DNA of 20,300 nt, from positions 1-20,300 of IMG/VR virus record IMGVR_UViG_3300031841_003681; one strand, written 5' to 3'. Both the position numbers and the translations under genes were made by a program. The stretch's first letter is position 1. Every line of letters starts with the position of its first letter. The stretch is from a virus. The notes under the pieces were generated by a model. The model searched no databases and was not told the DNA's origin. It saw nothing but the letters and a program-made list of their open reading frames with translations. Positions 11,508-19,870 of this stretch are shown in pieces.

Positions 11508-13349
11508 TCAACCCTGCTTAAGATCTTGGATGTATTGTTGCACTAATTGTTGTGCATCCGGACGGCCACTTTTTTGCAGCTGTTGGATTTCACGACTTGC
11601 ATCAATACTACGACGCTTAGTTAATTGCTTACTTGCATTATAAGCTTCACTAGCTGTGCCAGTCATTGAAATTTGCCCTAACTCTTGATCAGAAAGATTG
11701 GAATACGGATTGCGAACTTTATCTAAAGCACTCTGACGAACATCAGTTGGTTTGCGTTCAGAAGCAGCAGACATCAAACCAGTTGATTTGGACTGTGCGC
11801 CAGGGACATAGCTTGGCTCGACACCATAGACACCGATTCCTGCAGGGCCACCACCTTCTTGTTGCCTAACTGCATAGGGATCAATGCGTTCTTGCGGTTG
11901 AGTTTCAATTTGACTTAACGCCGTTTCGCGAGCAGGCCGATCCAGCATGTAGTCATCAGGTGCTCCAGGGACGTTGGTATCGGCTGTTCCAAAAATTGGA
12001 CGTTGGCGTGAAACCGGAGGAGCTTGCTCTAAAACAGGGGACGCGCCACGAATTGCAGTTCCTTGTGCCGTTTTAGTAACAACAGCTTCTGGTCCAATAT
12101 TTGAAACGGTACGTTCGGGAAGAGTTTCAAAGTCAACAGCACCTGCAGATTGAACAGTTTGGCGAATTGGTCCGGCAGGTAAAGCAGTCTTTGCCATCGA
12201 CTCACCCGTCATCTGTGGCTTGACGTTTGCAGAAGTTCGGAATGACTGAGCTAATGCACGTTCGTACCGAGTAGTTCCAGGTTGTAACCCAGTGGCTGCA
12301 ACTTCAGCACGGCGAGCTTTCATTTCAGCGAGAGCTGCATCAGCGGTTTCTTGTGCAGAGATCGGTCCTTGCACAGGAACATCAGTTTGAGTAAAAGGAA
12401 TTTCGCCTTCGGTAACTACAGCAGCAGCATCAGCTGCCTGAACAGGAGATGCACCACGTTGCTCTAATCCATCTTGAACTCGCTCAAACTCAGCTAAGTT
12501 TTCACCTGGATCACGTTGAACTGTCCGTGAAACACGCATTGCCTCTTGATCGGCACCAGTGTCAATAGCTTCCGCAGATTGGTTAGAAACTTGACCTTCA
12601 ACCATCTGTTGTTTCTGGACACTGGTAACAGCTCCTTCCTCCAGCAGTTGTTGAGAAGCGTTCGCATCAACGTACTGCTTCTGGACTAAGTATTCATTTG
12701 CAAAATTACCTTCAGCCTCTTCTTTTAGTTCAGCCAGGATGTCTTGAGCAACTTCTTTGGTCTGACGTTGGGATTCACGACCGATTTCAGCTGCCTCTTG
12801 ACGTTGTTTGGCTTGCGTATATTCACCTTCGTACTTCCTAAGAAAACGATCAGCTGCATCGTCATAATCCTTAGGGCTTTGACCAGCGGCACGTAGTTCG
12901 CCAGTAGTTTCACGAATTAATTCAACGTCAGCACCAGACTGTGGACGTGTTACCGCAGGAAGATCTGCCTCAGGTTTTGCGGCAGAAGCAGCATATGCAG
13001 CCCTACGTTGTTCAGCGATAGGAACTCCTTGAGTTACTTCAGATGCAAGGGGAAGTTTTACGCCAGTTTGCAATGAACCTGTACGTTTTTGTAATTCAGA
13101 TGCAGCAATACGTGCATTTTGTTCAACTTCTTGTCTACGCGTAGGTTTTTGCGATGTTTGTGCCGTTTCTGCACCAAAACCACGACCACGCATCAAACGA
13201 CGGCCAGCGATACCAGCACCAGCAGCAATACCTAAGCCAAGAGCAGTTTTACCCACAGCATCCAGGAATTGATTGCCTTGTTCCGGAGGTTGTTGTAAAT
13301 TTTGCTCTTGTGCAGCCCTAAATCCTGCCTCGTAAGATGCGCGATCCAT
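11508..13349 (-). CDS. 613-aa disordered/helical protein, first gene of the leftward operon
   Basis: The start MDRASYEAGFRAAQEQ at ATG 13349 is the first gene after the strand switch, with no ribosome site. Residues 31-49 (AVGKTALGLGIAAGAGIAG) form one hydrophobic glycine-rich helix next to a basic stretch (RRLMRGRG). The remainder is Gln-, Ala-, Glu- and Thr-rich with no clear fold, including coiled-coil-like parts near residues 165-240 and a Pro-rich part with NVPGAPDDYML. It may be a scaffold, tape-like or ejected protein. Length and composition alone cannot decide. Confidence 0.75.
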   Translation of the reverse strand: MDRASYEAGFRAAQEQNLQQPPEQGNQFLDAVGKTALGLGIAAGAGIAGRRLMRGRGFGAETAQTSQKPTRRQEVEQNARIAASELQKRTGSLQTGVKLPLASEVTQGVPIAEQRRAAYAASAAKPEADLPAVTRPQSGADVELIRETTGELRAAGQSPKDYDDAADRFLRKYEGEYTQAKQRQEAAEIGRESQRQTKEVAQDILAELKEEAEGNFANEYLVQKQYVDANASQQLLEEGAVTSVQKQQMVEGQVSNQSAEAIDTGADQEAMRVSRTVQRDPGENLAEFERVQDGLEQRGASPVQAADAAAVVTEGEIPFTQTDVPVQGPISAQETADAALAEMKARRAEVAATGLQPGTTRYERALAQSFRTSANVKPQMTGESMAKTALPAGPIRQTVQSAGAVDFETLPERTVSNIGPEAVVTKTAQGTAIRGASPVLEQAPPVSRQRPIFGTADTNVPGAPDDYMLDRPARETALSQIETQPQERIDPYAVRQQEGGGPAGIGVYGVEPSYVPGAQSKSTGLMSAASERKPTDVRQSALDKVRNPYSNLSDQELGQISMTGTASEAYNASKQLTKRRSIDASREIQQLQKSGRPDAQQLVQQYIQDLKQG

Positions 13350-13430
13350 TTATATTCAAATTTATTCGTATCTACATTCTAAACGTAGAAGTACTTCAGT
13401 TATATTAAAGAAACGACCGATATTATCCAG
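13350..13430. promoter_or_regulatory. Divergent intergenic region at the strand switch
   Basis: An 81-bp AT-rich gap separates the first leftward gene (ATG 13349) from the first rightward gene (ATG 13431), so it must hold promoters for at least one block. Possible -10 boxes are TATATT around 13402 on the plus strand and TATAAAT next to the leftward ATG on the minus strand. No matching -35 box was convincing on either strand, and start sites cannot be fixed from sequence alone. Confidence 0.4.
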
Positions 13431-13640
13431 ATGAATATCGAAGATAAACAAAAAAGGATTGAAGGATTAGAAGCAATTAAAGATCGTGCGCTAATTATGG
13501 CCCGTGAAGGGGTAGATTCTCTTGGCGTTCGTGATTTTATTACGCAAGCAAAGACAGAATTAGCTTACGAGCTTCCCGATGAGGACGCATTTCGTAAAGC
13601 AGTAGCCGCCACCCAGCGATATCAAAAAAATAAAGGCTGA
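13431..13640 (+). CDS. Hypothetical 69-aa protein
   Basis: First rightward gene. It starts MNIEDKQKRIEGLEAIKDRA and is charged and helical throughout (VDSLGVRDFITQAKTELAYE). It has no membrane segment or known motif. A strong hairpin terminator (13667-13696) closes it, so it is a single-gene transcript independent of the small-gene block further right. A regulator is conceivable given its position at the strand switch. No helix-turn-helix can be defended. Confidence 0.7.
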   Translation: MNIEDKQKRIEGLEAIKDRALIMAREGVDSLGVRDFITQAKTELAYELPDEDAFRKAVAATQRYQKNKG

Positions 13641-13666
13641 TTATAAAGAAAATCTGTAATTTATAG

Positions 13667-13696
13667 CCCTAATTTTAGTAATTGGGGTATTTTTTT
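13667..13696 (+). terminator. Rho-independent terminator after 13431-13640
   Basis: Stem CCCTAATT / AATTGGGG (8 bp with one G-U pair), loop TTAGT, followed by TATTTTTTT. It lies 26 nt after the stop codon of the upstream gene. This is a complete intrinsic terminator on the plus strand. Confidence 0.85.
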
Positions 13697-13703
13697 GCCT
13701 AAA

Positions 13704-13723
13704 AACCGGGTTAAGACCCGGTT
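13704..13723 (-). terminator. Second hairpin, probably a minus-strand terminator
   Basis: AACCGGG, loop TTAAGA, CCCGGTT: a 7-bp GC-rich hairpin. Read on the minus strand it is followed by a short T run (TTTTT including paired bases), while on the plus strand it is followed by AATAAG. It may stop leftward transcripts before they enter the 13431 gene, although no leftward gene is seen to the right. Confidence 0.6.
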
Positions 13724-14109
13724 AATAAGTATATTTACCCAAAAAAGGGCCTTATATACACCCAAAATGGGGAAAAAATTTTCCTGACGCTTCTCCCACT
13801 GCCCGGTCGACGCCGATTACGTGTAGAAAAAAAAAGGAGAAGGGTGTGTGGGTATGAAGGGAGGGAGAGAATCCGAGGGAAATGAGGAAGAAGGGCGGGA
13901 GAAAGGGAACGAAGTCAGCTCAGAGTAGCGGCAACGTAACTTACCTGCTTCGTTTCCAGGGAACACAGCAATCATCTGCTGCGTTTTCCACATTTCCACA
14001 GGAAATCTGTACAATTCGCGCTCGCGATCTCACTCGCCGCCGAAAGAAGGGGATTTGCAGAAGTGTACTGTAACTAACTGTCGCTCAAATCCCTTGGTAT
14101 CACTGCGTT
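13724..14109. other. Long gene-free region: candidate origin or regulatory region
   Basis: No convincing gene. From left to right it holds the near-palindrome GGAAAA-AA-TTTTCC (about 13772-13785), a strongly purine-rich plus strand at about 13825-13914, DnaA-box-like TTTTCCACA at 13984-13992 followed at once by TTTCCACAG (13993-14001), the 6-bp hairpin ATTTCC/GGAAAT (13992-14006), and the leader inverted repeat (14050-14093). An open frame on the minus strand across 13817-14014 is only the complement of the purine tract. Placement next to divergent gene blocks suits an origin, but a plain leader is also possible. Confidence 0.4.
14050..14093 (+). repeat. 8-bp inverted repeat in the leader of the small-gene block
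   Basis: GGGATTTG (14050-14057) is perfectly complementary to CAAATCCC (14086-14093), enclosing 28 nt. A flanking A48-T94 pair could extend it past a bulged G. Within the loop, CAG and CTG can form a small inner stem. It lies just upstream of the first type 2 element and may be part of a folded 5' leader. Confidence 0.5.
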
Positions 14110-14142
14110 CTTGGCATTCAGCTCTGCTGAAGTAAGCCCAAG
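14110..14142 (+). ncRNA. Type 2 intergenic RNA element, copy A
   Basis: Outer stem CTTGG (14110-14114) with CCAAG (14138-14142), then CAT, a 5-bp hairpin TCAGC-TCT-GCTGA (14118-14130), A, GTAAG (14132-14136) and C. It has the same layout as the copies at 17721, 19275 and 19835, with a different outer stem that still pairs. It lies 33 nt upstream of ATG 14176. Confidence 0.6.
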
Positions 14143-14175
14143 TTCATGTACACAATTGTAAACGGAGTTAATCCA

Positions 14176-14340
14176 ATGAAACTTAGCTGTAATGAAAGAG
14201 ATTTTCTTATGCATTGCATAGAACTCTTTGGCGATGGCTCTGAAACTGTCAAGTTTCTGAACTATGACGGAACAGAAGTTTTAATGGATTATGAACAGAT
14301 AAATGATCTGTATAACAGAATCCAGGATGGCAAAATTTAA
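14176..14340 (+). CDS. Hypothetical 54-aa protein, first gene of the T-loop cassette series
   Basis: Start chosen at ATG 14176 because GGAG (14164-14167) lies 8 nt upstream. An in-frame ATG at 14146 touches the preceding RNA element and lacks a site. Product MKLSCNERDFLMHCIELFGD, then ETVKFLNYDGTEVLMDYEQI: acidic, small, no membrane segment and no known family. Its TAA overlaps the first base pairs of T-loop element copy 1. Confidence 0.7.
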   Translation: MKLSCNERDFLMHCIELFGDGSETVKFLNYDGTEVLMDYEQINDLYNRIQDGKI

Positions 14341-14407
14341 CTGATCCGTACAAGCGGGTCCAGGGGTGCGAACCCCCTGGCAGTTATTGCCACCCACTGA
14401 GGGTGGT
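14339..14407 (+). ncRNA. T-loop intergenic RNA element, copy 1
   Basis: P1 AACTG (14339-14343) with CAGTT (14381-14385). P2 ATCCG-TACAAG-CGGGT. P3 CCAGGGG with CCCCTGG closing the 7-nt loop TGCGAAC. The junction from P3 to P1 has no unpaired base. Linker ATTG, then hairpin CCACCC-ACTGA-GGGTGG (14390-14406). It fills the whole gap between two genes. Not a tRNA: there is no anticodon arm and no 7-bp acceptor. Confidence 0.7.
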
Positions 14408-14419
14408 TACTACAGAACC

Positions 14420-14593
14420 ATGAGCTGCGCTATCGAAGCAAAGGATGCCATCTATTTCTTCGTTACAGAAGAAGAGGGTGACATGGTGCAAGTAACCAAG
14501 TACATCCGTAAAGGATTTAAAGGTTACGACCAGGGAACGAAAGTTTCCAAGCAGTTTGCACGTACTTGGTACAAGCAACTGTGCAACGCCTGA
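14420..14593 (+). CDS. Hypothetical 57-aa protein
   Basis: ATG 14420 is 12 nt after T-loop copy 1. The frame is open further upstream (from a GTG at 14366), but that part is inside the RNA element. Product MSCAIEAKDAIYFFVTEEEG, then YIRKGFKGYDQGTKVSKQFA: one compact alpha/beta-sized domain with no known motif. The TGA lies inside the 5' strand of copy 2. No ribosome site was seen before the start. Confidence 0.7.
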   Translation: MSCAIEAKDAIYFFVTEEEGDMVQVTKYIRKGFKGYDQGTKVSKQFARTWYKQLCNA

Positions 14594-14651
14594 TGGTGTA
14601 GGAGGGGTTCGACTCCCCTCCCAGGTATTGCCCAACCGACCGGAGATGGGC
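14588..14651 (+). ncRNA. T-loop intergenic RNA element, copy 2
   Basis: P1 is changed to GCCTG (14588-14592) with CAGGT (14622-14626), so both strands differ from the other copies but still pair. P3 GGAGGGG with CCCCTCC closes TTCGACT, an exact T-loop. The P2 hairpin is missing and replaced by 8 nt. Final hairpin GCCCA / TGGGC with a 12-nt loop ending GGAGA. Confidence 0.7.
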
Positions 14652-14672
14652 ACCGGCACAGTTCAACTCAAC

Positions 14673-14939
14673 ATGGCACGTAATGATGATCAACTGCACT
14701 ACCAACCTGAAGCGGAGTGTAAGTTTCGTGTTACTTGGTATGGCGGAGAGTCAACGCAGCTTCACTTTCAAAAGTTAGGCATTGTTGCTACTCCACAGTT
14801 CGATCAGGAACCGGAATGGATTGACATTGATTGCCGCACAATAATGAACTTTCCTACCAGGGTTAAAGACCTTTGGTTAGAGATGGTTGATTATTACAAC
14901 TACGGCATTGAGATGGAGCAAGAGCGTTGTACTTTTTAG
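14673..14939 (+). CDS. Hypothetical 88-aa protein
   Basis: Start chosen at ATG 14673. An in-frame ATG at 14646 lies in the last hairpin of T-loop copy 2 and gives an unlikely N-terminus. Product MARNDDQLHYQPEAECKFRV, then TWYGGESTQLHFQKLGIVAT, ending in YGIEMEQERCTF: acidic, beta-rich in the first half. No known family. TAG at 14937-14939 precedes T-loop copy 3 by 2 nt. Confidence 0.75.
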   Translation: MARNDDQLHYQPEAECKFRVTWYGGESTQLHFQKLGIVATPQFDQEPEWIDIDCRTIMNFPTRVKDLWLEMVDYYNYGIEMEQERCTF

Positions 14940-14941
14940 CC

Positions 14942-15010
14942 AACTGATCCGTTAAAGCGGGTCCGGAGGTGCAAACCCTCCGGCAGTTATTGCCTACAGC
15001 GGAGATAGGC
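14942..15010 (+). ncRNA. T-loop intergenic RNA element, copy 3
   Basis: P1 AACTG (14942-14946) with CAGTT (14984-14988). P2 ATCCG-TTAAAG-CGGGT. P3 CCGGAGG with CCTCCGG closing TGCAAAC; the stem bases differ from copies 1 and 4 on both strands and still pair. Linker ATT, then hairpin GCCTA / TAGGC (14992-15010) with a 9-nt loop ending GGAGA. Confidence 0.7.
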
Positions 15011-15032
15011 ACCGCACTTTATGGAGTTCCTA

Positions 15033-15191
15033 ATGGAATTTGAAAATCTGACTTCAGATCAAGTTGTTTGCGTTCTTGAAGAAGTTCACAACCGTGCTAA
15101 TGATTTCCAAGAGAAACTAGGCACTTGCTACAGCAATGCTTTGGTCACAGTATTCCACGATCTGTGGAACACGTTAGAGAAACGCAACTGA
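15033..15191 (+). CDS. Hypothetical 52-aa protein
   Basis: Start chosen at ATG 15033 because GGAG (15023-15026) lies 6 nt upstream. ATG 15021 is in frame and would add MEFL. Product MEFENLTSDQVVCVLEEVHN, then ANDFQEKLGTCYSNALVTVF: helical and acidic with no known family. Under 60 codons, but bounded by two RNA elements exactly like its neighbours. TGA lies at the base of T-loop copy 4. Confidence 0.65.
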   Translation: MEFENLTSDQVVCVLEEVHNRANDFQEKLGTCYSNALVTVFHDLWNTLEKRN

Positions 15192-15255
15192 TCAGTTAAG
15201 GCTGGCACCAGGGGTTCAATGCCCCTGGCAGTTATTGCCACCCACTAAGGGTGGT
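15186..15255 (+). ncRNA. T-loop intergenic RNA element, copy 4
   Basis: P1 AACTG (15186-15190) with CAGTT (15229-15233). P2 ATCAG-TTAAGG-CTGGC (4 good pairs plus an end mismatch). P3 CCAGGGG with CCCCTGG closing TTCAATG, a good T-loop. Linker ATTG, then CCACCC-ACTAA-GGGTGG (15238-15254). The next ATG is at 15267. Confidence 0.7.
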
Positions 15256-15266
15256 ACTTAATCAAC

Positions 15267-15473
15267 ATGAATCGCATTCCAGTTCAACCTTTCCTTGCCG
15301 TACTTATCGGTACTGGCATTGGTGGTTTAATGTGTGTCGCAGGACAAAAGCATCTCAATCACCTTGCAAAGCAAGAGTGTTTAAAACAACCTGACACTCA
15401 TCGTATTATCACGATGCGTAGTTGGGTTGGTGATGCTACTCACTGCGTCCACATTCGTTACCTTGCTAACTAA
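15267..15473 (+). CDS. 68-aa single-pass membrane protein
   Basis: ATG 15267 follows T-loop copy 4 by 11 nt. Residues 8-26 (PFLAVLIGTGIGGLMCVAG) form one membrane helix. The rest is basic and contains two cysteines (C38, C60), with RSWVGDATHCVHIRYL at the C-terminus. The short N-terminus and hydrophobic start suggest an anchored or exported small phage protein acting on the host envelope. The role is not known. Confidence 0.7.
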   Translation: MNRIPVQPFLAVLIGTGIGGLMCVAGQKHLNHLAKQECLKQPDTHRIITMRSWVGDATHCVHIRYLAN

Positions 15474-15479
15474 TTACCA

Positions 15480-15617
15480 ATGGCTATTCGTAAGTCTATT
15501 GCTGGCTGCCTCATCGCAGCAGCCACGCAACTACAGCAAGATCAATCCAAAGAGATTTTCTTGCATGAGGTCAAGAAGGCACGCATCAAGCTTGCCGACT
15601 GGATCAAACCCAAGTAG
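15480..15617 (+). CDS. Hypothetical 45-aa protein
   Basis: ATG 15480 is 6 nt after the previous stop; TAG at 15615-15617. Product MAIRKSIAGCLIAAATQLQQ, then KEIFLHEVKKARIKLADWIK. It is amphipathic and helical and reads as a normal protein. No known family and no ribosome site. Short, so moderate confidence. Confidence 0.5.
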   Translation: MAIRKSIAGCLIAAATQLQQDQSKEIFLHEVKKARIKLADWIKPK

Positions 15618-15649
15618 CATTGGCAACTACCCCCCTTTCTTGTTGGCAG

Positions 15650-15904
15650 ATGTGTGTTCATTACCGTGCATGTATTTGTGAATACTGCGGGGAAACCACA
15701 GCTACTGTTCAGCCTCTCAAGCGTTATTGCTCGCGTCGGTGTAAAGAACTGGCGCGGCAAAAACGTAGGCGTGATGCTGCAGCTTCAAAAGCTGTTGAGG
15801 GGTCTTGCCATCACCAACTCTCTACATCAGGTGGTGGCACAAATCAATTCAATCCTACGGAGCAATCCAATGATTCATTCAATTCAACTGCTGTCCCACA
15901 TTGA
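15650..15904 (+). CDS. 84-aa putative zinc-binding protein
   Basis: Residues 10-31 show C-x2-C (C10, C13) and C-x3-C (C27, C31) 13 residues apart, with YCSRRCKELARQKRRR directly after, typical of a small zinc knuckle followed by a basic helix. Such proteins usually bind nucleic acid. The second half is polar and disordered (STSGGGTNQFNPTEQSN). The open frame extends to TTG 15620, but ATG 15650 is the better start. The C-terminus overlaps the next gene by 35 nt. Confidence 0.65.
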   Translation: MCVHYRACICEYCGETTATVQPLKRYCSRRCKELARQKRRRDAAASKAVEGSCHHQLSTSGGGTNQFNPTEQSNDSFNSTAVPH

Positions 15905-17720: not shown

Positions 17721-17779
17721 CTGGGCATCTATTTAGTAACGCCACGTCTAGGGCACAAGCTGAATAGTGTAAGTCCCGA
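17721..17779 (+). ncRNA. Type 2 intergenic RNA element, copy B (long hairpin)
   Basis: CTGGG (17721-17725), CAT, hairpin CTATT (17729-17733) with AATAG (17763-17767) enclosing 29 nt, T, GTAAG (17769-17773), T, then CCCGA (17775-17779): 4 of 5 outer pairs form, one C-A mismatch. Followed by CTTTTAT. ATG 17810 lies 30 nt downstream. It fills the gap after the 17713 stop. Confidence 0.6.
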
Positions 17780-17809
17780 CTTTTATCTTGTTTCTTTACA
17801 TCAAATCCA

Positions 17810-19274: not shown

Positions 19275-19316
19275 ACAATACGGCTGGGCATCCTTTGGTG
19301 TAAGTCCTAGTATTGT
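19275..19316 (+). ncRNA. Type 2 intergenic RNA element, copy C (extended stem)
   Basis: CTGGG (19284-19288) pairs with CCTAG (19306-19310, one G-U), extended past a CGG bulge by ACAATA (19275-19280) with TATTGT (19311-19316). Inside: CAT, a weak 2-bp CC-TTT-GG hairpin, T, GTAAG (19300-19304), T. ATG 19336 follows after 19 nt. Confidence 0.6.
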
Positions 19317-19834: not shown

Positions 19835-19870
19835 CTAGGCATTGAGTCCCCATCCTCATGTAAGTCCTAG
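19835..19870 (+). ncRNA. Type 2 intergenic RNA element, copy D
   Basis: CTAGG (19835-19839) with CCTAG (19866-19870), CAT, hairpin TGAG-TCCCCATC-CTCA (19843-19858), T, GTAAG (19860-19864), T. Compared with copy A both helices have changed on both strands and still pair. Followed by ACTTTTTTG, so it could also act as a weak terminator. ATG 19892 is 21 nt downstream. Confidence 0.65.

Follow-up and report, generated by a model that had tools for sequence, protein, structure and literature searches.

A repeated tRNA-like RNA fold at the ends of small genes in S-EIV1-like cyanophages

Early mRNA of phage T7 is split at RNase III sites, which are long double-stranded stems. In eukaryotes, the nuclear RNA MALAT1 is known for a 3' end formed at mascRNA, a small tRNA-like cloverleaf. 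ELAC2 takes part in the generation of MALAT1 (PMC3161902). Viral tRNA-like structures, such as that of the TYMV 3' end, have an acceptor/T-arm stack and a D/T elbow within a non-tRNA topology (PMC4810234), and the RNase P substrates C4 antisense RNA, M3 RNA and operon mRNAs present a tRNA-like signal with a 12-bp distance (PMC11143913). Cyanobacterial and cyanophage genomes also contain structured RNAs with Rfam families, manA, wcaG and PhotoRC-I/II, which are 5' UTR elements of metabolic or photosynthesis genes (PMC2864571).

In tRNA, D-loop bases 18 and 19 contact the T-loop, with 19-56 forming a Watson-Crick pair (PMC4810234). RNase P, RNase Z, the CCA-adding enzyme and others read this elbow and, in part, its distance from the acceptor end (PMC4810234, PMC11143913). 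The RNase Z cut falls immediately 3' of the discriminator base, and C there is inhibitory (PMC7479834, PMC3161902); for two archaeal RNase Zs the 5' end had to be mature already (PMC7479834). In cyanobacteria, the genes of most elongator tRNAs do not encode CCA (PMC5143459), and cyanobacterial RNase P favours CCA-less substrates (PMC4264200).

Four structured elements between five tiny genes

The window, that is, the whole 20.3-kb stretch of viral DNA that was analysed, encodes a terminase that is 80% identical to the S-EIV1 protein; S-EIV1 is a Synechococcus phage isolated from a lake in the high Arctic. On its + strand, five tiny ORFs at 14146-14340 (64 amino acids), 14420-14593 (57), 14673-14939 (88), 15033-15191 (52, with a start at 15021 or 15033) and 15267-15473 (68) form the start of a rightward operon, adjoining a divergent junction with structural genes. 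Judged from the sequence, early expression would fit a site beside such a junction. The five proteins had no known family in PHROGs or Pfam, and a promoter and terminator scan of positions 13300-15700 gave matches that were not above chance.

A sequence-only reading of this DNA had placed four copies of a structured RNA between these genes, and we found all four at the positions it gave, one in each of the four gaps separating the five ORFs. Each copy has a head and a tail. The head is a three-way junction in which P1 (5 bp) and P3 (7 bp) add up to 12 bp capped by a 7-nt T-loop; an unpaired A follows, then UU, then a tail that is either a hairpin or an H-type pseudoknot. The T-loops reported for copies 1-4 (TGCGAAC, TTCGACT, TGCAAAC and TTCAATG) were recovered, as was the arrangement in which the 7-bp P3 abuts P1 without a gap and TATTGCC comes after. 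The hairpin that the same reading had drawn last in every copy holds for copies 1 and 4; copies 2 and 3 end in H-type pseudoknots instead.

Head 1 (14339-14386, + strand; E = 2.4e-16 with the covariance model R1 described below) lies downstream of tiny gene 1 and consists of P1 (14339-43/14381-85), P2 (14345-48/14355-58, its loop ending in AG at 14353-54), P3 (14360-66/14374-80), the T-loop UGCGAAC (14367-73) and the unpaired A at 14386. The UU linker and tail 1 (14387-14407, + strand) follow, the tail being the hairpin GCCACCC-ACUGA-GGGUGGU. Head 2 (14588-14627, + strand; E = 1.3e-6) has P1 at 14588-92/14622-26, the junction AUGGUGUA with GG where P2 is absent, P3 at 14601-07/14615-21, the T-loop UUCGACU at 14608-14 and the unpaired A at 14627. 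Its linker and tail (14628-14656, + strand) comprise UU and a pseudoknot with S1 GCCCA/UGGGC and S2 CCGG/CCGG (GCCCA-ACCGA-CCGG-AGA-TGGGC-A-CCGG). Head 3 (14942-14989, + strand; E = 6.5e-18) contains P1 (14942-46/14984-88), P2 (14948-51/14958-61, loop end AG), P3 with the T-loop UGCAAAC, and the unpaired A at 14989, and leads through UU into a tail (14990-15015, + strand) whose pseudoknot pairs S1 GCCUA/UAGGC and S2 GCGG/CCGC (GCCTA-CA-GCGG-AGA-TAGGC-A-CCGC). In head 4 (15186-15234, + strand; E = 8.1e-12), P1 is at 15186-90/15229-33, P2 at 15192-95/15202-05 with loop end GG, P3 at 15208-14/15222-28, the T-loop UUCAAUG at 15215-21 and the unpaired A at 15234; UU and the hairpin GCCACCC-ACUAA-GGGUGGU (15235-15255, + strand) end the element upstream of tiny gene 5.

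The D-loop-like dinucleotide is AG in the copies with UGC loops (1 and 3) and GG in those with UUC loops (2 and 4). Folding z-scores were -3.9, -1.8, -1.4 and -3.5 for copies 1-4. Upstream stop codons lie in or at P1: UGA occupies P1 positions 4-6 in copies 2 (ORF 14420-14593) and 4 (ORF 15033-15191), the UAA of the upstream gene touches P1 in copy 1, and a UAG stands just upstream of P1 in copy 3. As the sequence-only reading had noted, the copies are without an anticodon arm and without an encoded CCA. We rejected a canonical tRNA or tmRNA, there being no anticodon arm and no tRNA found by ARAGORN in the window.

A second repeated structured RNA, CYDGG-C-N-[hairpin]-GUAAGY-CCHRG, was seen in 67 distinct copies across all loci; in the window it is at 14110-14142, about 17746-17780, 19284-19310 and 19835-19870. 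It often lies 5-17 nt past a stop codon, with the next ATG about 30-37 nt on; its P1 and hairpin change in pairs, and Rfam has no match to it. One variant stands ahead of the array's first gene, and some copies are directly upstream of phage tRNA-Leu genes.

An unnamed family with a covarying elbow

We searched with a pattern for the 3' half of the head (the P3 3' side, the loop and TATTGCC), leaving out the P1 5' strand, P2 and the P3 5' strand. Matches occurred in at least 119 viral contigs, and complete heads numbered 152 in 107 sequences, the window included; a partial pattern in that many contigs together with this many complete structures excludes chance. Hits in L030, L094, L130 and L133 were set aside: with a 5-bp stem and lacking P1, they look like the T-arms of ordinary tRNAs. 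The same pattern, run on 84,980 bacterial and archaeal genomes (257 Gb), gave 8 hits, none with a 7-bp P3. These were unstructured or tRNA and none was titled cyanobacterial, so bacterial hosts were rejected as the source of the element.

The covariance model R1 returned 190 matches in 79 loci, with 2-4 tightly clustered copies per record in twelve records. Listed elements scored 25-81 bits, nearly all above 30, against a best score of 23.7 bits in control loci, for a real tRNA. The sequence-only reading had staked its claim on further copies with supported covariation, and many such copies now exist. Its expectation for Rfam was likewise borne out: there was no gathering hit in the window, and up to E = 1 in four sequences the only match was to real tRNA. 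The element is an unnamed RNA family absent from Rfam. Our literature searches found no description of it, and an earlier mention in the S-EIV1 genome paper is possible. The carriers are S-EIV1-like phages, viruses of freshwater cyanobacteria, which hold well over 100 distinct copies and in which the element closes many of the first small genes. Among isolates, S-EIV1 was the only one found with the element, with two copies on the minus strand of KJ410740 (43742-43795 and 43448-43501) in which the tail stem ACC/GGU replaces GCC/GGC, a compensatory change.

That the helices are kept by paired changes, as first noticed among the four copies, extends to the family. Across 76 distinct heads, 14 of 17 pairs changed on both sides, and covariation was 0.527, compared with 0.154 in shuffled alignments (0/500) and at most 0.137 in slid ones. 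Standard pairs fill 98.1% of pair cells, a percentage inflated by the choice of heads with a structural descriptor. The outermost P1 pair, 1-72, is looser and paired in about 83%. G.U cells outnumber A.C cells by 112 to 7 (one conserved U.G pair in P2 supplies about 70 of the 112), so selection on the structure acts in the mRNA-sense strand. Very probably, then, the head is a tRNA-like fold with P1 and P3 stacked as a 12-bp acceptor/T-arm rod.

The dinucleotide that ends the P2 loop covaries with T-loop positions 2 and 3, giving the sets AG or CG with UGC, GG with UUC, GA with UUU, and AA or CA with UGU. For 130 distinct P2-bearing heads we went through the rows by hand, in a uniform register that sets nt 19 opposite the invariant U. 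Pair 19-56 proved to be G-C in 121 of them and A-U in the other 9, with no exceptions; the tool count in the 76-row alignment was 71 G-C and 5 A-U. This pair played no part in sequence selection, and its A-U form is found on several different P2 stems. The 18-55 contact (A.G 111, C.G 10, G.U 8 and A.U 1 in the 130 heads) covaries with one departure; L140 and L113 deviate from its rule. A T-loop that would be locked to the P2 (D-loop-like) loop through a tRNA-type elbow is therefore well supported by these compensatory changes. With its 12-bp stack and D/T-loop contact, the element belongs among the tRNA-like structures. The sequence-only reading had interpreted it as a tRNA-mimicking signal for cutting, stability or translation control: the mimicry stands (T-loop, 12-bp stack, D/T-loop covariation, no Rfam match), and the three uses differ in probability, as weighed below.

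Phage tRNA-Leu genes follow the same pairing, with D-loop AG in the two that have a UGC T-loop and GG in those with UUC. In the former (L087:11194-11279 and one further locus) the T-loop is UGCAAGU and the D-loop AG, not GG, a natural A18-G55 elbow variant without U55 and an instance of the A.G form independent of the element.

The distance from the T-loop to nt 73, searched over 7-18 nt, came out at 12 nt for 185 distinct elements and at 13 nt for another 31, taken over two head classes; the sole other value, 10 nt, came from one window hit and looks spurious. The second class, class B, reads CUGAGU-ACCA-GGCGUGAUGCC-GGGGG-AUCRAAU-CCCCC-ACUCAGU-A-UUGCC, with P1 of about 7 bp and P3 of about 5 bp compared with 5 + 7 in the main class. 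The two classes thus divide the stack differently and keep a near-equal total. Class B heads, recognisable by the long P1, the T-loop AUCRAAU and the hairpin GGCGUGAUGCC, were seen in L005, L032, L033, L040, L056, L066, L067, L095 and others, with tails and a distance to the unpaired base that match those of the main class.

The search left the linker positions unconstrained; of 118 elements, 106 have A at nt 73 and 117 have UU at nt 74-75. In the tails, pseudoknot stem S2 covaries widely (GCGG/CCGC, GUGG/CCAC, GCAG/CUGC, CAGG/CCUG, AGGG/CCCU and others). Heads and tails behave as separate modules: head identity was 0.90 between copies with the upstream gene in common and 0.62 where only the downstream gene was in common, tail identity leaned to the downstream gene (0.79 compared with 0.67), and identical heads occur joined to different tails and downstream genes. 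At L005:503, L054 and L066, an upstream motif AGGGGGCUGCGCAUCC..CGCAGACAC runs directly into the pseudoknot tail with no head; L115:5081 has a head between that motif and the tail, and this looks like a clean head loss or gain.

Embedded stop codons and proposed processing

Of 76 heads, 73 have a stop codon at P1 positions 4-6 (UGA 65, UAA 6, UAG 2). In 58 of 70 the frame that this stop closes is 30 codons or longer, compared with 24% by chance. Column shuffling gave 71.3 stops in 76 from composition alone, with 104 of 5,000 shuffles reaching 73, so the joint choice of letters is weakly informative and frame closure is the stronger evidence. The next start codon is mostly about 33-45 nt past the unpaired A. 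Recoding, readthrough or bypass of the T4 gene 60 type at the embedded stop was rejected: there is no open, frame-linked extension, the frames after the stop are unlinked to the next gene (31/25/21), and 18 of 79 meet another stop within two codons. Downstream of the pseudoknot tails in L008, L014, L027 and S-EIV1 we noted a short hairpin, for example CAGGA-GAU-UCCUG, with GGAG inside it and the start codon within or next to its 3' arm; it could tune initiation.

A gene-end fold holding a stop codon suggests that these phages borrow host tRNA-trimming enzymes to divide a long message. The element would act in cis as a tRNA-like structure within the sense mRNA, with host tRNA-maturation nucleases recognizing the elbow and 12-bp rod and cutting the polycistronic early mRNA. 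The most likely cutter would be RNase Z, acting directly 3' of the unpaired A at nt 73 and so parting it from UU. This base is a discriminator of the RNase Z type, unpaired and not followed by C74-C75. A cut at that point agrees with the unpaired A and the UU, would leave the stop codon intact and would coincide with the boundary between head and tail. The upstream mRNA would keep its stop codon and end 3' in a compact tRNA-like fold, perhaps CCA-extended, and the downstream mRNA would begin with UU and a protective hairpin or pseudoknot. That no CCA is encoded does not count against this, given the CCA-less tRNA genes of cyanobacteria and the preference of their RNase P. Against RNase Z stand the two archaeal enzymes that needed mature 5' ends: a long coding 5' extension could block the enzyme. 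UU, moreover, is kept more strictly than the enzyme requires. Against processing at large, P1 would be unfolded by a ribosome that reaches the stop codon. Reading the sequence evidence as a whole, we put processing of early polycistronic mRNA by host tRNA-end enzymes, preferably RNase Z, slightly short of an even chance.

The 19-56 pair and the 12-nt ruler do not discriminate between tRNA-binding partners, and RNase P could be the main user in place of RNase Z, with a cut on the 5' side of P1 like those in phage C4 RNA and mRNAs. It reads the elbow and the 12-bp distance and accepts acceptor/T-arm hairpins (PMC11143913), and the cyanobacterial enzyme prefers substrates without CCA (PMC4264200). 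However, its canonical cut precedes the last sense codon and in most copies would remove the stop codon, giving a nonstop mRNA where an RNase Z cut leaves the gene intact, and we consider this reading quite improbable. The stop codon is also what recommends a translation element, in which the fold governs termination, reinitiation or a shunt between neighbouring genes: the counts of P1 stops and closed frames, the spacing to the next start and the GGAG-enclosing hairpins after some tails all suit it. Yet roughly one copy in three has its stop at another position, the spacing to the next start is not constant, the reading frames are random, and coupling requires neither a tRNA elbow nor a 12-nt ruler, so that we regard such a role as unlikely, if the least so of the alternatives.

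The very stable sense-strand structures at gene 3' ends, and the modular heads and tails that join at the A-UU linker, would also suit a passive stability module in which the head stops 3' exonucleases, the tail stops 5'-end-dependent decay, and RNase E or another general nuclease cuts the linker. A plain hairpin would suffice for this, however, leaving the elbow covariation and the T-loop-to-A73 distance unexplained, and the single-stranded linker is just 3 nt; we judge it somewhat less probable than a translation element. Antitermination on nascent RNA near the start of the early operon, with the element acting on RNA polymerase like the put sites of phage HK022, agrees with the grouping of 2-4 copies at the head of a long operon beside a divergent junction. 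But the copies stand one per intergenic gap, at stop codons, and put RNA has no known role for tRNA-elbow features, which makes this reading improbable. The joining of the same heads to different tails and downstream genes might point to a DNA-level cassette or recombination site between small genes; the excess of G.U over A.C cells indicates selection on the sense RNA, and tertiary covariation between loops is a feature of RNA, as conserved stop codons are of coding sequence, so a purely DNA-level explanation is scarcely credible. Processing by tRNA-end enzymes is the reading we carry forward, in that tentative form.

Relation to known tRNA mimics and mRNA-splitting elements

Since tRNA mimicry is already a known principle, the element is a new family within it; what is new is the family, its genomic place and its architecture. 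It adds to the DNA phages a large unnamed group of tRNA mimics in which the elbow is evidenced by compensatory loop-loop changes, with a fixed distance from the T-loop to a putative cut site, and it includes a non-canonical 18-55 A.G pair that it has in common with two phage tRNA genes. If processing is true, the family would represent a new way of dividing a phage operon, and nature would have supplied a set of variants on which to test what RNase Z, RNase P and other elbow readers require; S-EIV1, an isolate with a named host, Synechococcus sp. PCCC-A2c, makes this testable. It is possible, though we hold it with more doubt than processing itself, that mimicry of tRNA serves this DNA phage lineage as a general device at gene ends: host tRNA-maturation enzymes would divide its early messages at the embedded folds, and the resulting mRNAs would have tRNA-like 3' ends, perhaps with CCA added, and 5' ends capped by a pseudoknot or hairpin.

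The acceptor/T-arm stack, the D/T elbow and the non-tRNA topology are shared with the structures of the TYMV type, whereas the phage element is internal and repeated between the genes of a DNA phage, not placed at a genome end, and has neither an anticodon domain nor a CCA end. An aminoacylated viral 3' tRNA-like structure does not fit, on the same grounds, namely the internal position and the lack of an encoded 3'-terminal CCA. With C4, M3 and the operon mRNAs cut by RNase P, the element has in common the tRNA-like signal and the 12-bp distance; it gave no Rfam match to C4, and it differs from these substrates in having a stop codon inside the acceptor-like stem, in its repetition at successive gene ends and in that its cleavage is putative. 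The manA, wcaG and PhotoRC-I/II RNAs are alike in being structured RNAs of cyanophage genomes, and none matches the element. As with MALAT1, tRNA-end enzymes would cleave a long RNA next to a tRNA-like fold, and in place of the mascRNA cloverleaf the phage mRNA carries a minimal three-way junction. A parallel in proposed function is the T7 early region, where structured elements likewise stand between successive early genes and a polycistronic mRNA is split; in contrast to the RNase III stems of T7, the element described here is a tRNA-elbow fold.
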